From Peredibacter starrii (GTDB lineage: Bacteria; Bdellovibrionota; Bacteriovoracia; Bacteriovoracales; Bacteriovoracaceae), in assembly GCF_034259205.1 (NCBI RefSeq), contig NZ_CP139487.1, positions 3,844,001-3,908,000 of the forward strand: a stretch of DNA of 64,000 nt. Direction: 5' to 3'. A program made the translations under genes and the position numbers. The notes under the pieces are model-generated. The model searched no databases and had not been told where the DNA came from. It saw nothing but the letters and a program-made list of their open reading frames with translations. The first letter of the stretch is position 1. Every line of letters starts with the position of its first letter. This document shows, piece after piece, positions 5,182 through 30,368 of the stretch.

Positions 5182-5919
5182 TTGAAATTAATTAGCCTAA
5201 TTGCGCTTATGGGTCTTTCTATCTCTGCTTTTGCCCAAGAGATTAAGCTTAACCCTTTCCAATGGACCATGACAGATGTTGCCTCTCGCGGTCTTACTAA
5301 AGAAGCTCTCTTCAAAGGTATGGATACTGAGTTTGTAAAAACCAACAGCTCTATTTGTTCAAACCGTGCTCTTATGTGGGCCAATGATTTTAAACGTGAT
5401 CACAATCTAGATACCGGTAAGATTTTTATCTTCTTCACTGAGAAGAAAAATGACGACGTTAAATTTAAAGTTTGGTGGTACCACGTTGCTCCTGTTATCA
5501 ATGAAAGCGGCAATATTTGGGTAGTAGATGCTGGCTTCCAAGGTCGTAACGGCATCAACGAGCCAAGAACAAAAGAAGACTGGATGAAGTATTTCAACCA
5601 GGGTCAAGTTTGTCGCGAAATTAAGCCGAATGAAACTGAGTTGATTGAACTTATGTTCTCTCAACAGACATATCCGAAATACACTGCGTACGGAAATCAT
5701 CCTTGTTACTACATGATTGTTCCTCACACTATCTGGACACCAAATGTTCTTGCTCAATCTCTATTGGGTAAAGATTCTTCTGGTAAGCCAGTTCGCGTTG
5801 AGCGCCCAGCAATTGTAGAAAGAGAACTAATGGAAGCTTGTGTTGAAGCTGCTTCTGGAAAAATTGGTCGTGTTTTCGGTTCTAGTAAAAAGAAATGTGA
5901 AGAATACGTGGCTAAATAA
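5182..5919 (+). CDS. Secreted protein-glutaminase-like cysteine enzyme, paralogue A
   Basis: The TTG start at 5182 follows AGGGGG by six bases and opens a signal peptide (cleavage near AFAQ). The 245-residue protein has the layout of the protein-glutamine glutaminase family: Cys59 in ICSNRALMW, His101 in WWYHVAPV and Asp116 in IWVVDAGF, a Cys-His-Asp triad in the papain-like order. This family deamidates glutamine side chains of proteins, releasing ammonia. Further cysteines (CREI, HPCYY, EACVE, KKCEE) may form disulphides outside the cytoplasm. The paralogue at 7449-8174 shares all three residues and these cysteines. Assignment to glutaminase rather than to a related transglutaminase-fold hydrolase is inference. 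Confidence 0.75.
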   Translation: MKLISLIALMGLSISAFAQEIKLNPFQWTMTDVASRGLTKEALFKGMDTEFVKTNSSICSNRALMWANDFKRDHNLDTGKIFIFFTEKKNDDVKFKVWWYHVAPVINESGNIWVVDAGFQGRNGINEPRTKEDWMKYFNQGQVCREIKPNETELIELMFSQQTYPKYTAYGNHPCYYMIVPHTIWTPNVLAQSLLGKDSSGKPVRVERPAIVERELMEACVEAASGKIGRVFGSSKKKCEEYVAK

Positions 5920-7410: not shown

Positions 7411-7448
7411 ACATATGGTAAAGACCTCCTTAACAAGTGAGGTATTCC

Positions 7449-8174
7449 ATGAAGTTTCTTGCATTGGCCTTTATGTTACCGCTTTCAGTCTTCGCGCAAA
7501 CGATTACGCTTCAAGATTTTAAGTATCCCGTTCAAGACGTTTTGACTCTCAAACTAAGCAAAGAAGAACTTTTTAAGAGCATGGATCTTTCTTTGATTAA
7601 ACCGAAAGATTCCATTTGCTCGAGTCGTGCCCACATGTGGTCATTTGATTTTAAGAAAAAGTTTGAAGTAGATGCTCCGAAGATTTTTTTGTTTTTCACT
7701 CGTAAGAATAATCGTCATGGTCAATTCACCTGGTGGTATCACGTGGCACCGATGGTGAATGAGGGCGGAAAACTATGGGTCATGGATAAAGGTTTTCCTA
7801 AAAAGATCACCTCTCCCCTTCTTCGTGATGAATGGATGAAAAACTTTGTGGGCGATAAATCGGTCTGCAAAGAAATTAAACCGGGTGAAGATGATTTGGT
7901 TGATCGCATGTTCAGAGAGGCCTCTTTCCCGGTCGAGACACAGTATGGCAGTCATGACTGTTATTACAAAATCACACCGGCCGGATATATGACTCCAGGA
8001 AGTGTGGCAAAACATATTCTTGGTAAAGATGAAGATGGCAGACCCGTCAGCTTCAATCGCGATGAGATGAATTTGAATGAAGTTTATAATGCCTGCCTGG
8101 AGGCCCACACTGCACCTTGGGGTTGGGCAGTAGGTGCGGGCCAACAGGCATGTAGAAATTTTGTCTGGAACTAA
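7449..8174 (+). CDS. Secreted protein-glutaminase-like cysteine enzyme, paralogue B
   Basis: The ATG at 7449 is preferred because GTGAGG lies six bases upstream and the product opens with a signal peptide (MKFLALAFMLPLSVFAQ). It is the same length and layout as the gene at 5182-5919. The catalytic candidates are Cys57 in ICSSRAHMW, His98 in WWYHVAPM and Asp113 in LWVMDKGF, and the later cysteines are also conserved (CKEI, HDCYY, NACLE, QQACRN). The two copies differ widely in other positions, so this is an old duplication. They are separated by unrelated genes rather than in one operon. A protein deamidase is the best family guess. Confidence 0.75.
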   Translation: MKFLALAFMLPLSVFAQTITLQDFKYPVQDVLTLKLSKEELFKSMDLSLIKPKDSICSSRAHMWSFDFKKKFEVDAPKIFLFFTRKNNRHGQFTWWYHVAPMVNEGGKLWVMDKGFPKKITSPLLRDEWMKNFVGDKSVCKEIKPGEDDLVDRMFREASFPVETQYGSHDCYYKITPAGYMTPGSVAKHILGKDEDGRPVSFNRDEMNLNEVYNACLEAHTAPWGWAVGAGQQACRNFVWN

Positions 8175-22178: not shown

Positions 22179-22823
22179 TCAGATGAGGAGTTCAAGTCCA
22201 CGTCTTGTAAGATAACTTTGACCGACATCGAGATCCCATCTCTCCTGCCTTTTAATCTCAATAGTTATCTTCATCCTTTGGGCATAGTGCTGAACGATCT
22301 TGAACCCTTCCTTCAGATGAATGAGGGATGAGTATCCATCGATCTTTGTATATATGCCTTTTTCATGGCGATGTTGATTAAAGAGTACATACTGAATGGC
22401 GTTCTTGGTTTCTCTAAATGTTTTGAGCACATGAAGATGATATCGTTCAATTTGGACCCGACCTTTATTGAGACCTTTAGCGAAAGTGACAGTGAGAGAT
22501 CTCATTCCTTTTGTGAGCACTTCATTATTAACGGCCTCAAGAATGAGATGAATGTGATTACTCTGCATTGAAAAATGCAAAATTCTTAGCCCATGCGATC
22601 GCGCATTCACAATTGCCCTTTTCAAAAGCTTCAAAGACTCCTTATTTCTAATGGAGGCTCGATATTTGAAGTTTACATGGACTGGCGTTCTTTGGAGCAC
22701 AAGTTCGCGTTTACGGTGGGCCACACCTTTTGAATGGACCCTCTTTCTTCCTGATCCCGGTCTTCTCCCACCTTTGTTTCCTTTATTGACATTAAGTTGA
22801 AGTTGTTTGGCCATGGGCCTCAT
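22179..22823 (-). mobile_element. REP-associated tyrosine transposase-like (IS200 superfamily) gene
   Basis: The protein has the HUH motif in QSNHIHLILEA and the downstream catalytic Tyr in AIQYVLFNQHRH, the two elements of Y1 transposases. Its N-terminus is very basic (GGRRPGSGRKR), as in the REP-associated (RAYT) subgroup. The start is either the ATG at 22823 or the one at 22814, which has GAGG just before it; longer frames add a hydrophobic stretch that does not belong to the family. I found no IS200-type end hairpins or target repeats on either side, so it looks like a single domesticated or solo copy rather than an intact mobile unit. Confidence 0.82.
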
Positions 22824-22980
22824 TTGAAAGAGGCATATATAAGAAGCATAAGTGGGGAGGCACTGATTAAGAACTAAGCAGGCCAAACATTTCAGAGGAG
22901 AAATCGTATAAAAAATAGACATATGTATATTTTAGACATTTTTCCCTCCTCCTAACCCCTTGATTCCATGGACCTATTTT

Positions 22981-23057: not shown

Positions 23058-23447
23058 ATGAAAACAAAAACATTATCACTTTCAACGATTCTTGGTTTTT
23101 TAGGACTTATTCTTATGATCCACACGATGAGTGCCTACAGTGCAACTCCATCGATTACTTGCTCTACTGCATTTGGTGAAAAAACATTCACTATCCAAGA
23201 CGACCGCATCTCATTCCAAAAAGAAGATGAGGCAGGAGTTAGTCGTTCAATTTCGTCTCTAAATGGTGAATCTGTGAGAACTCACAAGAAGAACCACGGC
23301 TTTACAAAAACTCTTTATATCGATGGTCTTAAACATCGAATCAACGTCCAGGACACAAATGAGTTCTCGGATGTTAACGACTACCTTTCGATTACGTCCC
23401 CTAAAGGGCATGAGATGACATACCCCCTCAATTGTCACTCTGCTTAG
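23058..23447 (+). CDS. Small exported protein
   Basis: The 129-residue product has a long N-terminal signal or anchor segment (hydrophobic residues about 10-30, ending SAYSA) and a mature chain with two cysteines (SITCSTAFGE near the start, LNCHSA at the end). AGGGGGAAAC precedes the ATG. It is a single-gene unit with a good terminator and a possible sigma-54 promoter. No family is recognised. Confidence 0.72.
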   Translation: MKTKTLSLSTILGFLGLILMIHTMSAYSATPSITCSTAFGEKTFTIQDDRISFQKEDEAGVSRSISSLNGESVRTHKKNHGFTKTLYIDGLKHRINVQDTNEFSDVNDYLSITSPKGHEMTYPLNCHSA

Positions 23448-23468
23448 TAGTGGTTATACCCCCCTGTA

Positions 23469-23508
23469 AAAAAAGGGACTAGCGCCGGATGCGTGAGGTC
23501 CCTTTTTT
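23469..23508 (+). terminator. Terminator after the 129-residue gene
   Basis: The stem AAAAAAGGGAC / GTCCCTTTTTT is 11 bp, with an 18-base loop and a run of T at its end. Confidence 0.85.
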
Positions 23509-23565
23509 ATTTCCCGACCGTCACAGTCGCCTTCTAATCTTCTTCAATTAAAATCCGATTAGATT

Positions 23566-23585
23566 CTTTGAGTTAGCACTCAAAG
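23566..23585 (+). promoter_or_regulatory. Palindrome overlapping the ribosome site of the caspase-like operon
   Basis: CTTTGAGT-TAGC-ACTCAAAG is a perfect 8-bp inverted repeat seven bases before the ATG at 23593. Its right arm includes the first bases of the AAAGGA ribosome site. It could be an operator or an mRNA hairpin limiting translation of the first gene. Confidence 0.5.
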
Positions 23586-23592
23586 GAATCTC

Positions 23593-23913
23593 ATGAAGTT
23601 TGTGCTTTATCTGCTTTTATTCATGTCATTTGCTCACGCTCAAAAGGCAAAAGTACTTTTGATCGATGAAAACATCAATGGCAAAGAACTCGAAAAGAAT
23701 TTCGATGTGGAGAAGAACACCCATCAAAGCTCCATTCCCAATAAAGCAGACAGAGATTTGCTCCTAAAAAATGTAAAGGGCACGGCCAAATGGGACGAAC
23801 TTCAAAAAGACATCTTCTACATGGATCTCAAATCTAAATCCGTTAAAGAACTTAAAAAGAAATATTCAGAATTCTCAGAGAAGGAACTTCAACTTCTCAA
23901 GGACAAGAGGTAA
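23593..23913 (+). CDS. Small exported partner protein, module copy A
   Basis: The 106-residue product has a signal peptide (MKFVLYLLLFMSFAHAQ). The mature part carries a pattern shared with the copy at 26003-26326: KNTHQSSIP, then DRDLLL, W-D-E-L-x-K-D-I-F-Y-M-D-L, and a basic end (KELQLLKDKR). AAAGGA lies six bases before the ATG, and the next gene starts two bases after its stop. It has no known domain. Being always paired with the large caspase-like protein, it may be an inhibitor, chaperone or substrate; this is inference. Confidence 0.8.
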   Translation: MKFVLYLLLFMSFAHAQKAKVLLIDENINGKELEKNFDVEKNTHQSSIPNKADRDLLLKNVKGTAKWDELQKDIFYMDLKSKSVKELKKKYSEFSEKELQLLKDKR

Positions 23914-23915
23914 TC

Positions 23916-25955
23916 GTGAAAAAGTTAATCCCTGTTGCCACTCTACTCGTTTCAATTGGAGCTCACGCTCAATGTAACAAAAAAGTCGATCCGAATAAGG
24001 TGATCCTCTTTATTGACACCAATAACTCGGAACTTGAAATTGCCACGACTGAGAAGGCGGCCTGTGAACGTGGTGAAAGATTAATGGTTGTTCCCAAGAA
24101 CCATAAAGAATATATCAAATACACGAACGCAGTCATCGCTTCGACCAAAAAAGTTGAAAGATGTAGAACGGCCAAAACTGATTGTACCAGTGCTAATGCA
24201 GAATATGAAAAGGCCCAACAAGAACTGGATAAACTAAGCAGAAGTAACAAAAATATTTCTAAGCAAACTCAAGAGGCCCTGGCAGAGATTAAAAATTCTG
24301 GTGCCAAACTTCAAAACCTCACTATTTCGGGACATGATGGTGGAGGACATTTTGGTGGGTATAAAGGTGACTTCGGCCGCCAGGAACTAGCGGCAATAAT
24401 GAAAAATTTTAAAGACATTAACGAAGTAAAATCCGTTCTTCTGCTTGGTTGTTATACTGGTGTTCCGAAAGAAATCATCGAATGGAAACATATCTTTCCG
24501 GAAGTAAAAATCATCGCTGGTTATGATGGTTCTGCCCCTCTCTCAGACAAACCCGCAGGTCACCAATATATTTCAGACATCCTTTTAAAAGAAAAAAGTC
24601 TTCTGAAGAATGCAGAACAAAAGAAACTTCAGTCTTATGCCAAACAAAACATTCAGGGTCTAACTCAGATGAATGCGGCCATGTATGTCTATTGTAGTGA
24701 CGGAACGAAAGAAGGTGAATTCTATTACGGCTCGCTTAAAGAAGGCAAGGCCTTCCGTCCATTTGATATTAATGAGTGTGAAGGAAAACGAAATCAAATT
24801 GAAGAACTGATCTCGAAGGTCAATCAATATTACTCAGGTGAACTTGAAGTTCCGAAAAATACTGCCAGTGGTGAACTACGTCAGATCTATAACGAAGCAA
24901 GACGTATCGAACATTGCGGTGAAATTCTTCAGATGGAACTTAACCTGAATGCGGTGTTTAATCTTCTTTTCTATGAAGGTGCTAAACAGAACTTTGCCAA
25001 CTATTACAAAGATGATCTTGCTGAGGCCGAGAAGATTTTAAGCGAATTTAAGCTTGAAGATATGGAGAAAGGCTTTAATGAGGCCCAGGAAAAGCAGAAC
25101 AAATTTATTGAATCTATCAGAGCAGAGATCGAGTCTCTGGAAAAGAATCCAGAGGCCGCAGTTGCAGCAGAACAGAAAAAGCTTGAAGAATTTACCAAGA
25201 AAAGAGACGCGTTATTTAATGACCCGAAATTTGCGCGAGTTAAAAGTTACATTAATCCCGAGAACGGTGCTTATAACGGGCCGATGGATCTGGCCGAGAA
25301 TTTAGTTCCGCTGGCGCAGGAACTTATGAACTCAGCGATGACCTATAGTGCACTTAAATATACAGCAGAAGCAGTTAAGGCAAATCCTCAAGGGATGGTC
25401 CTGGCAAAAAGACAGGTTCTCGTTTCTGAAGAAAATAACCAAAAGAATCAGATCCTCGCCTTCCAGCAGTTGAAAGAAAAGCTCGCTAAACCAGAGAATA
25501 AAGTCTGGGTACCTACGGCCAAAAATCTTAGTTCTAAGACACGTAAAGAAACACTCGCCAATATCCATAATGCTCACGCAATACTTTCGGTAGAAGGTCT
25601 ACCAGCAAAACAACGTCAGGCACTTTCATGGATGGTTCAGGCATCTAGTGCACACTTAGGATATTTCCAAAACCCTTTTAGCTGGCACGAATTCACTGGC
25701 AGGACCGAAGACCCTCAGTTCCCTATTCGCTTAAAAGACTACACTTCAGGCCAAGGATACATGGGCGGCGGCGGTGGTTATGTGGGACCTGCTTATTACG
25801 GTGGATATACTGGTAGTGGATACCCGTCCCCAATGGGAATGGGTGGAATCGCTGGCGGTATGATGGGTGGGGCCACAACCGGTGGTTACTATGGCGATGG
25901 AGGTATAGATGAGGCCGATGAAGACAATGCTTACTCAGATGAGTCTGAAGAATAA
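23916..25955 (+). CDS. Exported caspase-like (clan CD-type) cysteine protein, copy A
   Basis: The GTG start follows AGAGG by five bases. The 679-residue protein has a signal peptide (cleavage near AHAQ), then a strand-like VILFIDTN. A His140 in LTISGHDGGG and a Cys179 in SVLLLGCYTG both follow hydrophobic strands, the arrangement of clan CD peptidases (caspase, gingipain, CHAT). A conserved block EIIEWK.IFP...GYD.SAPLSDKPAGHQ follows. Residues about 370-535 form a charged coiled-coil-like insert absent from copy B. The end has NPFSWHEFTG and then a Gly/Tyr/Met-rich tail and an acidic terminus. I do not recognise a named family. Proteolytic activity is inferred from the dyad only. Confidence 0.8.
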   Translation: MKKLIPVATLLVSIGAHAQCNKKVDPNKVILFIDTNNSELEIATTEKAACERGERLMVVPKNHKEYIKYTNAVIASTKKVERCRTAKTDCTSANAEYEKAQQELDKLSRSNKNISKQTQEALAEIKNSGAKLQNLTISGHDGGGHFGGYKGDFGRQELAAIMKNFKDINEVKSVLLLGCYTGVPKEIIEWKHIFPEVKIIAGYDGSAPLSDKPAGHQYISDILLKEKSLLKNAEQKKLQSYAKQNIQGLTQMNAAMYVYCSDGTKEGEFYYGSLKEGKAFRPFDINECEGKRNQIEELISKVNQYYSGELEVPKNTASGELRQIYNEARRIEHCGEILQMELNLNAVFNLLFYEGAKQNFANYYKDDLAEAEKILSEFKLEDMEKGFNEAQEKQNKFIESIRAEIESLEKNPEAAVAAEQKKLEEFTKKRDALFNDPKFARVKSYINPENGAYNGPMDLAENLVPLAQELMNSAMTYSALKYTAEAVKANPQGMVLAKRQVLVSEENNQKNQILAFQQLKEKLAKPENKVWVPTAKNLSSKTRKETLANIHNAHAILSVEGLPAKQRQALSWMVQASSAHLGYFQNPFSWHEFTGRTEDPQFPIRLKDYTSGQGYMGGGGGYVGPAYYGGYTGSGYPSPMGMGGIAGGMMGGATTGGYYGDGGIDEADEDNAYSDESEE

Positions 25956-26002
25956 GAAAACTTGATTAATTTTAACCAAGGCGAAAGCCGAAAGAACTAA
26001 AT

Positions 26003-26326
26003 ATGAAAAAGCTAATGACGATCTCAATGTTAATGGTTTCCATCTCCGCTTTCGCTCAAAAGGCGAACGTTATCTTTATCGACCCTGATATCGAAACGAA
26101 GGAACTTGAAAACTTCAACATTCAGAAGAACACCCATGAAAGTTCTCTTCCAGACAGAGACGATCGCGAGATGCTTCTCAATCAAGTGGCCAAGACCAAA
26201 GATTGGGATGAGCTTAAGAAAGATATTTTCTATATGGATCTGGCACGAAAATCAGTGTCAGAACTTCAAAAGAAATATCCAGAACTATCGGCCAAAGAAA
26301 TTAAACTACTAAAAGAAAGACGATGA
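26003..26326 (+). CDS. Small exported partner protein, module copy B
   Basis: The 107-residue product has a signal peptide (MKKLMTISMLMVSISAFAQ). It shares KNTHESSLP, DR..LL, WDELKKDIFYMDL, SVSELQKKYPELS and a basic end with the copy at 23593-23913. The ribosome site is weak (AAAGAACTAAAT before the ATG), and the gene starts 47 bases after the large copy A, so it probably relies on readthrough of the same transcript. Its stop overlaps the next ATG (ATGA). Function unknown. Confidence 0.8.
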   Translation: MKKLMTISMLMVSISAFAQKANVIFIDPDIETKELENFNIQKNTHESSLPDRDDREMLLNQVAKTKDWDELKKDIFYMDLARKSVSELQKKYPELSAKEIKLLKERR

Positions 26327-27891
26327 AAAAACTTCTTCTTCTCCCTCTAGCAGTTCTACCTCTTTATGCAGGAGCTTCCTGCCAGGACAGCATTAAGTCT
26401 GATAAGTACATGCTATTTATCGACACCAATGAATCTGAGAGAGAAATTGAAACAGCTGAGAAAGCGGCCTGTGCCCGCGGTGAGAAGATGGTGATTGTTC
26501 CTAAAAACTATAAGGACTATCGCACTTATATGGAAGAAATGGCCAAAGCAAAAAAAGTGGCCATGGACTGTACAAAGAAAAACCCCACTAGCACAACCGC
26601 TTGTCGAGATGTTCAGGTGGCCTTTCGTCAAAGCTACGAGAAGATGGAGAAATTCCGTCTAAGTCAGCCTAAAATTGAAACTGGCACTGACGAAGCACTG
26701 AAAGAAATCAAGTCCAAGAATGGCAAACTCAATAATCTTATCATCTCTGGTCACGATGGTGGTGGGGAGTTTGGTGGAGCGAAAGGTCGCATGAGTCGTG
26801 AAGACCTTTCGAAGGCCATGGCAAAATACAAAGACATCAACAATGTTTCTACGTTAATGCTTCTTGGCTGTTATACCGGTGTTCAAAAAGAAATTATCGA
26901 ATGGAAAAATATTTTTCCAGATGTTCGCATGATCGGTGGATACGATGATTCAGCTCCCCTATCTGATAAACCGGCGGGTCACCAATTCATCACAGAGCTA
27001 CTGACTAAAGAAAAAGCACTGATCGCCAATGCCGACCAGAAGAAACTCCAAAACTTCACCAGAGCAAACGTTAAGAGTTTAACTCTCTTAAACGCAGCAG
27101 TTTACGTAAATTGCGAAGATGGTACTAATAAAGAAGAGTTTTATTATACTTCTAAAAATCGTGGAAAACATTTCTCTCCTTATGGCGCAAAAGAATGTCA
27201 TGAGAAAGAAAAAGAATTCAACGACATCATCACGCAAATGGCGCCTTATGAGACAGGTGAAAAAGAACCACCTGCGGACACCGCCCGAGGCGAATTACGT
27301 CAATTGTACATCAAGGCGAGAAACCTCGAACATTGTAGTGATTTCTTAAAAAAAGAGATTAACGTCAGTAATCTTTTCAATCTTCTATTCTATCAAGGCA
27401 TCAAAGACAGTTTTGCCGCTTTTTATAAAGACGATTTGGCGGCAGCGGAAAAGGCCGTTGAAGAAATGAAGAAGAAATATCCCAATTATTTGAAAGACAT
27501 TTGGGTTCCTACTGCAGAAAACCTTGCCAAGCATTCAAGAAAGGAAATGCTGGAAAATATCCACAATATTCATGGCATTTTATCCAAAGCAGATTTAAGT
27601 CGTGAGGAAAAGAAAGTTCTGAGATGGACAGGCCATGTGTCATCTCGTCACCTCCATGAATTTGGCAATCCTTTCAGTTGGCATGAATACACTTCGGGGA
27701 CACCTGAAGCGCCCAGATACCCACTTCGACTTGCTAATTACTCTCCAATGCAAGCTTCCCTACATGGCGGATATGGCTTCGCCAGCGGTATCGTTGCAGG
27801 GTCAGGAAGTGGCGCTTTAAGCACACCTGCTCCTCAAAGAGAGGAATCAGATGGCACTTTCACTCGGTTACTGAACTTTATCCGAGAATAA
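26323..27891 (+). CDS. Exported caspase-like (clan CD-type) cysteine protein, copy B
   Basis: The ATG overlaps the stop of the small partner. The 522-residue protein has a signal peptide (cleavage near AGAS). His144 in LIISGHDGGG and Cys183 in TLMLLGCYTG have exactly the same 39-residue separation as in copy A. Blocks EIIEWKNIFP, GYDDSAPLSDKPAGHQ, GELRQLY.KAR and NPFSWHEYTSG are shared. It lacks the roughly 150-residue coiled-coil insert and the long Gly-rich tail of copy A. Conservation of both candidate catalytic residues suggests that both copies are active. No terminator is evident before leuS, 74 bases on. Confidence 0.8.
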   Translation: MKKLLLLPLAVLPLYAGASCQDSIKSDKYMLFIDTNESEREIETAEKAACARGEKMVIVPKNYKDYRTYMEEMAKAKKVAMDCTKKNPTSTTACRDVQVAFRQSYEKMEKFRLSQPKIETGTDEALKEIKSKNGKLNNLIISGHDGGGEFGGAKGRMSREDLSKAMAKYKDINNVSTLMLLGCYTGVQKEIIEWKNIFPDVRMIGGYDDSAPLSDKPAGHQFITELLTKEKALIANADQKKLQNFTRANVKSLTLLNAAVYVNCEDGTNKEEFYYTSKNRGKHFSPYGAKECHEKEKEFNDIITQMAPYETGEKEPPADTARGELRQLYIKARNLEHCSDFLKKEINVSNLFNLLFYQGIKDSFAAFYKDDLAAAEKAVEEMKKKYPNYLKDIWVPTAENLAKHSRKEMLENIHNIHGILSKADLSREEKKVLRWTGHVSSRHLHEFGNPFSWHEYTSGTPEAPRYPLRLANYSPMQASLHGGYGFASGIVAGSGSGALSTPAPQREESDGTFTRLLNFIRE

Positions 27892-27965
27892 CGCACCCCG
27901 AATACCTTTAAAAAAAGGCCCATTTCCAGTAAGCTACTAGCACTCACAAAGTGCAAGGAAAGCTT

Positions 27966-30368
27966 ATGGAATACAATTTCTCAGAACTCGAACCCAAGTG
28001 GCAAAAATACTGGGACGATAACAAAACTTTTAAAACCGTCGTTGATCAGAACAAACCAAAATATTACGTTCTCGACATGTTCCCTTATCCATCTGGTGCT
28101 GGTCTTCACGTAGGTCACCCCGAAGGTTATACGGCCACAGATATCATGGCGCGCTTTAAGCGTATGAAGGGCTTCAACGTTCTTCACCCAATGGGTTGGG
28201 ACTCTTTCGGTCTTCCGGCCGAAAACCATGCGATGAAAACTGGGATTCACCCAAACATCACAACTCAGGAAAACATCAAAACTTTCAAACGTCAGTTGAA
28301 GATGCTTGGCTTCTCATATGACTGGGACCGCGAGATCGCGACTTCTAACATTGATTACTACAAGTGGACTCAGTGGATCTTCGTTCAGCTTTTCAACAAA
28401 GGTCTGGCCTACGAATCACACATGATGGTGAACTGGTGTCCAAATCTTAAAACCGTGCTTGCTAACGAAGAAGTGATTAACGGTAAGTCTGAAGTTGGTG
28501 GTCACCCGGTGATCAGAAAACCAATGAAGCAGTGGATGCTAAGAATTACTGAATACGCTGAACGTCTTCTTCAAGATCTTGATCTTGTAGACTGGCCTGA
28601 ATCAGTAAAAGAAATGCAACGTGTGTGGATCGGTAAATCAGAAGGCGCCATTGTGAGTTTCGCGGTAGAAGGCAAAACTGACATGATTGATGTCTTCACT
28701 TCTCGTCCGGATACACTTTTCGGTGCCACATATATGGTGCTTGCTCCTGAGCACAAACTAGTTGATATCATCACAACTGATGCTCAAAAAAACGAGATCG
28801 CAAAGTACCGTGAAGTAACAGCACTTAAATCAGATCTGGAAAGAACTGAGCTTAACAAAGACAAGACAGGTGCTTTCACTGGTGCTTATGCCATTAACCC
28901 GGCCAACAAAAAGAAGATCCCGGTTTATATCGCTGACTACGTTCTGAACACATACGGCACTGGTGCCATCATGTCAGTTCCGGGTCACGATGAAAGAGAT
29001 CATGAGTTCGCAAAGAAGTTCAACCTTCCAATCGTAGAAGTGGTAAAAGGCGGAAACGTTGATGAAGCTGCTTTCACAGAAGATGGCGAGCACGTTAACT
29101 CTGATTTCCTAAATGGTCTCAATAAAGAAAACGCGATCAAGAAAATGATCGTTTGGCTTGAAGACAATAAAATCGGCTCTAAGAAAATTAATTACAAACT
29201 TCGTGACTGGTTGTTTTCTCGCCAGCGTTACTGGGGTGAACCGTTCCCAATTCTTAAATATGAAGATGGTACAGTTCGTTGTCTTGATGTTGATGAACTT
29301 CCGGTCGCTCTTCCTCAGGTTGAGAAATACGAACCGTCTGGAACTGGTGAATCTCCACTTGCCACAATTGATGAGTGGTTAAACGTTATTGATCCTAAGA
29401 CTGGCAAGAAAGCGAAGCGCGAAACAAACACAATGCCTCAGTGGGCCGGTTCTTGTTGGTACTACCTTCGTTTCTGTGATCCTCAAAATACAGAGCGCCC
29501 TTGGGACTCAAAAATTGAAAACTACTGGATGCCAGTTGACCTCTACGTAGGTGGTGCTGAGCACGCGGTTCTTCACCTTCTTTACTCTCGTTTCTGGCAC
29601 AAGGTTCTTTTCGACCTTGGTCTCGTTTCAACGAAAGAGCCTTTTTACAAGCTGGTTAACCAAGGGATGATCCTTGGTGAAGACGGCGAGAAGATGAGTA
29701 AGTCACGTGGAAACGTGGTGAACCCGGATTCAGTAGTAAATGAATTTGGTGCTGATACTCTTCGTCTTTATGAAATGTTCATGGGTCCACTTGAGAAAGT
29801 GAAGCCTTGGAACGCCAATGGTGTGAAAGGTGTTTATAATTTCCTTAACCGTGCTGCTCGTTTCTTCCTGGATAAGGAAAACTACGCTACTGGTACTGAA
29901 GACGTATCAAACGTAAAAGAGCTTCATAAGCTGATTAAGAAAGTGACCGAAGACATCGAAGGCATGCGCTTTAACACGGCCATCTCTCAGATGATGATCT
30001 TTGTGAACCACGTTTATAAAACAGGAAAAGTGTCGAAAGAAACTGCGGAGAAATTCGCCATGGTTCTTTCTCCATTTGCACCTCACTTGGGCGAAGAGCT
30101 CTGGTCATTCCTTGGCCATACTAAGTCTCTTGCTTACGAGAAGTGGCCTGAATTTAACGCTGAACTTGCCAAAGATTCTATGATCACGGTTGCAGTTCAA
30201 GTGAATGGAAAAACTCGTGGAACTTTCGAAGTGGATGCTGACATCTCGAAAGAAAACCTGATGGCCATCATTAAATCTGATGAGAAAATTGCAAAGTATC
30301 TCGCAGGCACGATTGTGAAAGAGATCTATGTACCAGGTAAGATTTGTAACTTTGTTGTAAAAGAATAA
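27966..30368 (+). CDS. leuS: Leucyl-tRNA synthetase
   Basis: The ATG at 27966 has AAGGA five bases upstream and gives the normal start [16 protein letters not shown]; a longer frame adds five residues. The 800-residue class I enzyme has the HIGH-type motif [10 protein letters not shown], an inserted editing (CP1) domain (about residues 220-420), the catalytic-loop KMSKSRGN motif and a C-terminal anticodon/DALR-like domain. It charges tRNA(Leu). It is the largest housekeeping marker in the window and suitable for phylogenetic placement. Confidence 0.97.

Follow-up and report, generated by a model that had tools for sequence, protein, structure and literature searches.

What is the role of two consecutive gene pairs of Peredibacter starrii, each encoding a small and a large exported protein, and why should two such proteins be kept together? 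The pairs occupy positions 23593-27891 of a 64,000-nucleotide stretch of contig NZ_CP139487.1 (positions 3,844,001 to 3,908,000 of the forward strand; assembly GCF_034259205.1), hereafter referred to as the window. Predators among the Bdellovibrionota need to export damaging proteases while sparing their own cells, and most of what they secrete still lacks annotation; a family with the caspase fold and a matched secreted partner would provide testable candidates for the control of released proteases. The answer proposed here, to which we give an even chance, is that each unit consists of a Sec-exported cysteine endopeptidase of the clan CD type (caspase/legumain-like) and of a dedicated, co-exported partner that keeps the enzyme latent.

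All four genes are on the forward strand. Pair A is composed of the small partner P0001 (23593-23913; 106 residues, ATG start) and of the large protein P0002 (23916-25955; 679 residues, GTG start), and pair B of P0003 (26003-26326; 107 residues, ATG start) and P0004 (26323-27891; 522 residues, ATG start). The small proteins both match the partner profile A2, while for the large ones a caspase/legumain fold is predicted. Two untranslated bases separate the stop of P0001 from the start of P0002, while P0003 and P0004 overlap by ATGA; the sizes and spacings given in the initial annotation are correct to the base. At the N-terminus of each of the four proteins, a basic n-region, followed by hydrophobic residues and by a signal-peptidase site made up of small residues, can be recognized by eye (putative cleavage sites, in gene order, AHA/Q, AHA/Q, AFA/Q and AGA/S), in agreement with the signal peptides that had been proposed for all of them. 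The sequence features reported for the large proteins are likewise present in both, namely SGHDGGG...LLGCYTG, GYD.SAPLSDKPAGHQ and a spacing of 39 residues between His and Cys (His140-Cys179 in P0002, His144-Cys183 in P0004).

P0001 and P0003 share 55% identity over 104 residues (E 1e-39), and P0002 and P0004 share 50% identity over 368 residues (E 1e-120) as well as a C-terminal block; judged by this similarity, pairs A and B are paralogues. The difference between 679 and 522 residues is mostly due to a predicted helical/coiled-coil insertion, which is found in P0002 and in most relatives and is missing from P0004; P0002 also has a Gly-rich, acidic tail. A search of the host genome (G000) for a third copy of the large protein found none besides P0002 and P0004. 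The tandem duplication which gave the initial annotation its title is therefore real at this locus, but it is not the general form of the system, because most genomes carry a single pair.

Searches of Pfam, NCBIfam and PDB sequences, performed with the four proteins and with the 29- and 27-member profiles, returned only chance or coiled-coil matches. No named family had been recognized at the outset either, and on the basis of these searches the large protein and the partner are each a new family, present in neither Pfam nor NCBIfam. Homologue searches found the large protein in 23 of the 129 genomes of the class; over the phylum, profile A1 (29 large proteins) had matches at E 1e-3 in 73 of 369 genomes, a figure to which members of a sister family, described further on, contribute. 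The distribution in Bdellovibrionota is patchy and extends to Bdellovibrio-like genomes, complete ones among them, and the named records among the relatives are metagenome-assembled genomes (MAGs) of Bacteriovoracaceae. A plasmid search found no homologue. Two large genes, L097 (5331-7100) and L107 (5098-6986), are broken by in-frame stops, and are either decayed copies or assembly errors. In A1, where pairwise identity is as low as about 18%, the invariant residues are A49, S142, G143, H144, C183, W194, G206, C292 and C338 (P0004 numbering, used for conserved residues throughout); the His-Cys dyad, with Gly directly before His, is thus conserved in all 29 sequences, and the additional cysteines C292 and C338 would fit an oxidizing compartment. 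In the wider homologue set His and Cys are almost fixed, the exceptions of note being L103 (SAH) and L114 (SGEHG).

The AlphaFold2 model of P0004, calculated with A1, had a mean predicted local distance difference test score (pLDDT) of 85.5 and a predicted template modelling score (pTM) of 0.80. Along the sequence, its elements are β1 (28-34), α1 (39-51), β2 (55-59), a helical insertion, α2 (118-131), β3 (135-145), a hairpin (149-158), α3 (159-168), β4 (173-183), α4 and β5, followed at some distance by β6. His144 is located near the end of β3 and Cys183 at the end of β4, so that the two residues end adjacent predicted strands, as had been anticipated from the motifs alone. Clan CD is defined by four parallel strands in the order 2-1-3-4, helices α1-α3, a His ending β3, a Cys ending β4 and a small β-section between β3 and α3 (PMC4357240), and a Gly immediately precedes the catalytic His (PMC12445089). 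The strand order and dyad placement predicted for P0004 correspond to this description of the caspase/haemoglobinase fold, the order along the sequence being taken from the model and the spatial order of the strands through Foldseek alone. In the Foldseek comparison with PDB, legumains and caspases were on top both for P0004 (best match human legumain 7fql, E 8.4e-3, probability 0.99) and for the model of a second homologue (best E 1.4e-2); over both models, the best probabilities were 0.99-1.00 and the best hits listed were overwhelmingly legumains and caspases. The suggested check by structure prediction thus showed the clan CD sheet in the predicted fold, with legumains and caspases first for two independent models, and the model of the L036 homologue had the same fold, on which the prediction for P0002 draws.

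In a profile-profile alignment between A1 and clan CD proteins from Bdellovibrionota (P 1.6e-4), the His residues coincided, as did the Cys residues; SGHDGG was aligned to T/SGHG, and LGCYTG to DSCYSG. None of the 29 members matched Peptidase_C13 (PF01650) at E<=0.1, or Peptidase_C14 (PF00656), all remaining below the family cut-offs; hhalign of A1 with relatives of C13 gave P 1.4e-3 (probability 18%), and with relatives of C14 gave P 6e-3 (probability 6%). By these searches, the large protein is not a member of C13 or C14 as Pfam defines them. The fold is nevertheless well supported by modelling, and because the topology, the dyad, the two models and the near-exclusive top hits agree, modest as the E-values are, the large protein would represent a new family with the workings of clan CD, to which it very probably belongs. 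The best reading is that of a peptidase family which is new while its fold is known, with no new kind of mechanism. Clan CD, whose known members are mainly eukaryotic, with a few bacterial proteases and toxins, would in this way gain a new secreted bacterial family. No link between Bdellovibrio and clan CD was found in the collection of papers searched, where the two that name both Bdellovibrio and caspase-like proteins concern other subjects.

A partner gene adjoins 53 of the 63 large genes surveyed, upstream at 46 loci and downstream, with reversed gene order, at 7; in 26 cases there is a 4-base overlap. The 63 genes derive from 65 open reading frames (ORFs), since in L097 and in L107 an in-frame stop divides the gene into two pieces, which were counted as one, and the class-level subset of the survey consists of 30 loci. 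At the 53 loci the partner is encoded beside the putative peptidase and both proteins have signal peptides, which would place them in the same compartment; the expectation that homologous loci would also contain a partner gene was largely borne out. The pair is found again in tens of genomes, far more than chance would give. Genome-wide searches for the partner gave matches nearly always beside a large gene and hardly any elsewhere, and, among the 10 large genes lacking a partner, 5 lie at contig ends, and in one of these 5 cases (L039, with L173) the genome has the partner at the end of another contig.

In profile A2 the C-terminal half is conserved, with the motif (W)DELxKDIxYxxL...KKYP, and the N-terminal half varies; the family has no relatives in Pfam and no convincing ones in PDB. 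Well-supported clades of the large protein reappear in the partner tree, and in L042 the divergent large gene is paired with the divergent partner. According to the gene trees, the tandem pair of genome G080 is a separate duplication that postdates the split from the other lineages. The partnership of enzyme and small protein is well supported by these comparisons, and the survey shows the partner to have been kept over phylum-scale divergence. The small partner family could also be used as a marker to find further such enzymes. Elsewhere in the host genome, just downstream of a uvrA-like gene, a secreted mini-protein of 66 residues is encoded that is similar to the C-terminal half of the partner (L167, 4671-4871, forward strand; G000 3358670-3358870).

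Additional information came from the genomic position of the pairs. They are flanked on the left by p129 (23058-23447, forward strand), which encodes a secreted, conserved protein of 129 residues with no Pfam match and occurs in each of the 26 genomes of the genus, and on the right by leuS (27951-30368, forward strand), the leucyl-tRNA synthetase gene (start at GTG 27951 in the ORF list, at ATG 27966 in homologues). The content of the slot between them (window 23447-27951; L203-L218) varies across the genus. One or two pairs are found there in 7 genomes (G000, G080, G081, G082, G086, G087 and G102, the last placed by the position of its pair after p129), a papain-like secreted peptidase alone in 10, a pair together with the papain-like peptidase in 2 (G083 and G094, the latter with p129 on another contig), and a partner without enzyme in 2 (G095 and G097); the slot is empty in 4.

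The papain-like gene displays the motifs Q38-x5-C44, WH188VILIVGYDD and D/N-S-F-G, and its Pfam C1/C70 matches are sub-threshold, so its classification is tentative. The partner never joins this gene when it is alone in the slot, and in the host genome the papain-like gene is located outside the slot. A rule by which the slot would contain either the papain-like or the caspase-like enzyme is ruled out by the two genomes with both and by this position of the host gene. The orphan partners, L163 (4499-4780, forward strand) and L164 (4478-4771, reverse strand), are 93 and 97 residues long and have signal peptides; no large gene accompanies them in the slot, their N-terminal half is shortened and the C-terminal helical half is kept.

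With regard to the surroundings, a HIHLI-motif protein that by eye looks like a REP-type (HUH) transposase is encoded just to the left of the slot (window 22179-22922, reverse strand). Further away in the window, two similar secreted proteins of 245 residues (5182-5919 and 7437-8174), about 1.5 kb apart, resemble another duplicated exported family.

How would such a pair work? In the mechanism that we favour, the partner would be made first, usually by coupled translation, and would associate with the enzyme in the periplasm, where, like a prodomain acting in trans, it would preserve the fold and hold the enzyme latent, as an inhibitor and possibly also a foldase. Latency would end with the exit of the enzyme from the predator or its encounter with the target, and the enzyme, once outside the cytoplasm, would cleave protein substrates on the C-terminal side of a specific P1 residue by means of His144 and Cys183. 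Binding would be the task of the conserved helices at the C-terminus of the partner (WDELxKDIxYxxL...KKYP), while the variable N-terminal stretch could tune each partner to its own enzyme. The large protein is likely to be proteolytic, and this function is supported by the 10 other genomes in which the slot is occupied by a papain-like secreted peptidase; the partner, we infer, would restrain the enzyme in the periplasm. A role in predation is speculation: for this phylum predation is a reasonable context, nothing more.

It should be noted that several observations weigh against this proposal. Five internal large genes (L059, L098, L101, L108 and L109) have no detectable partner. When the enzyme and partner of L036 were modelled as a joined protein (the stop being read as Ser), the pTM was 0.67 and the partner was well folded (pLDDT mostly 82-96), a result not taken as proof of binding. 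The genomes with orphan partners are MAGs, 82-89% complete, in which the enzyme may be encoded elsewhere. As for the fold, the Foldseek E-values are weak (best about 8e-3, none below 0.001) and the TM-scores low (TMt <=0.53), which we ascribe to the large helical additions carried by the protein; Pfam and PDB sequence searches gave no direct support for clan CD; and the residue after His is mostly Asp, as opposed to the Gly of classical H-G motifs.

These E-values and the lack of any sequence family match would suit a different Rossmann-like fold, that of an α/β hydrolase or of a binding protein, with no more than a resemblance to caspases. We regard such a misassignment as very improbable, considering that near-exclusive matches to legumains and caspases were obtained with models of two different proteins, that the position of the dyad, the β3 hairpin and the spacing all fit, and that the profile alignment is in register. 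It is somewhat easier to conceive, but still improbable, that the protein has kept the fold without proteolysis, having a structural or binding role or cleaving nothing but itself. The residue after His does vary (D, N, S, H, Q), a few members (L103, L114) alter the motif, and large helical and C-terminal domains with a conserved WHE dominate the protein; however, invariance of SGH and Cys in 29 sequences of such low identity is a signature of catalysis, and both dyad residues occupy canonical positions of the fold in the model.

If the large protein is a peptidase, the partner could still be a dedicated chaperone, foldase or activator required for its folding or activity, as lipase foldases are for lipases, with no inhibitory role. 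The obligate linkage, the divergence of partner families together with the enzyme, and the translation of the partner just before the enzyme in 46 of the 53 pairs can be read in this sense, although coupled translation, in which the partner is made first in most cases, is equally compatible with an inhibitor and an activator. The reversed order at 7 loci and the 5 internal genes without a detectable partner speak against it, and orphan partners persisting in an enzyme-less slot would be odd for an activator; because two genomes keep such an orphan in the same slot, inhibition or immunity is favoured, and we consider a partner without inhibitory role less likely. The orphans, the variable slot, the patchy distribution and the tandem duplications that arose in the host genome and, independently, in G080 would also be compatible with an effector delivered into or onto competitors or prey, the partner being a periplasmic immunity protein for the producer and its kin. 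This appears unlikely, because neither a delivery signal nor a neighbouring gene for toxin delivery was seen, the signal peptides of both proteins are plain ones, and a linkage tight enough for co-export fits a simple inhibitor as well. Returning to latency imposed by a secreted partner, its most far-reaching form is an undescribed, phylum-wide cysteine-peptidase system of predators, consisting of a new clan CD family held latent by a prodomain found only as a separate co-secreted protein, with orphan partners protecting enzyme-less cells and a locus interchangeable with an unrelated papain-like peptidase; this we put forward only tentatively, as a possible but rather uncertain extension.

By sequence, the large protein resembles only the secreted SGHFGG...FLMGCNTL proteins L120-L130, found in this analysis and widespread in Bdellovibrionota, which share the SGH/GC signature and the downstream GF.s.gP motif and align with the A1 core in hhalign (probability 98%, E 7e-15). 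They differ in their C-terminal regions and have no adjoining partner gene; these phylum-scan matches, weaker than about E 1e-10, were ruled out as members of the same family and are treated as a partner-less sister family. In the four sister proteins scanned there was no Pfam match, three of them showing sub-threshold HEAT-repeat matches.

In terms of layout, the pairs recall AprA/AprI (alkaline protease) and staphopain/staphostatin, in which a secreted peptidase is accompanied by a co-encoded periplasmic inhibitor. Here too a small protein, of about 90 mature residues, is encoded beside a putative secreted peptidase; the analogy is one of layout only, and those families are unrelated to the present pair (no Pfam match).

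As regards the fold, the caspases, metacaspases and orthocaspases of C14 have the same strand order and dyad, caspase-3 and caspase-7 are among the best structural matches, and the SGHG...DSCYSG of C14 proteins from Bdellovibrionota aligns with the SGHD...GCYTG of the large protein. Unlike them, the large protein has no Pfam C14 match and no identified p20/p10 cleavage loop, is secreted and has a partner gene. The legumains of C13 (including GPI8/PIG-K) are similar in the predicted core fold and dyad placement and provided the best Foldseek match, and C13 relatives in the same phylum have an H-G...x-C-x-S/T-G pattern (SHGGYRRGF...SACYSG) close to SGHDGGG...GCYTG. The large protein differs from them in the missing Pfam match and weak profile similarity, in the Asp that usually follows His, in the helical insertion between β2 and α2 and in the large helical C-terminal region. 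Finally, legumain has its prodomain attached at the C-terminus, whereas in the pairs described here the corresponding part would be played by a separate secreted partner.
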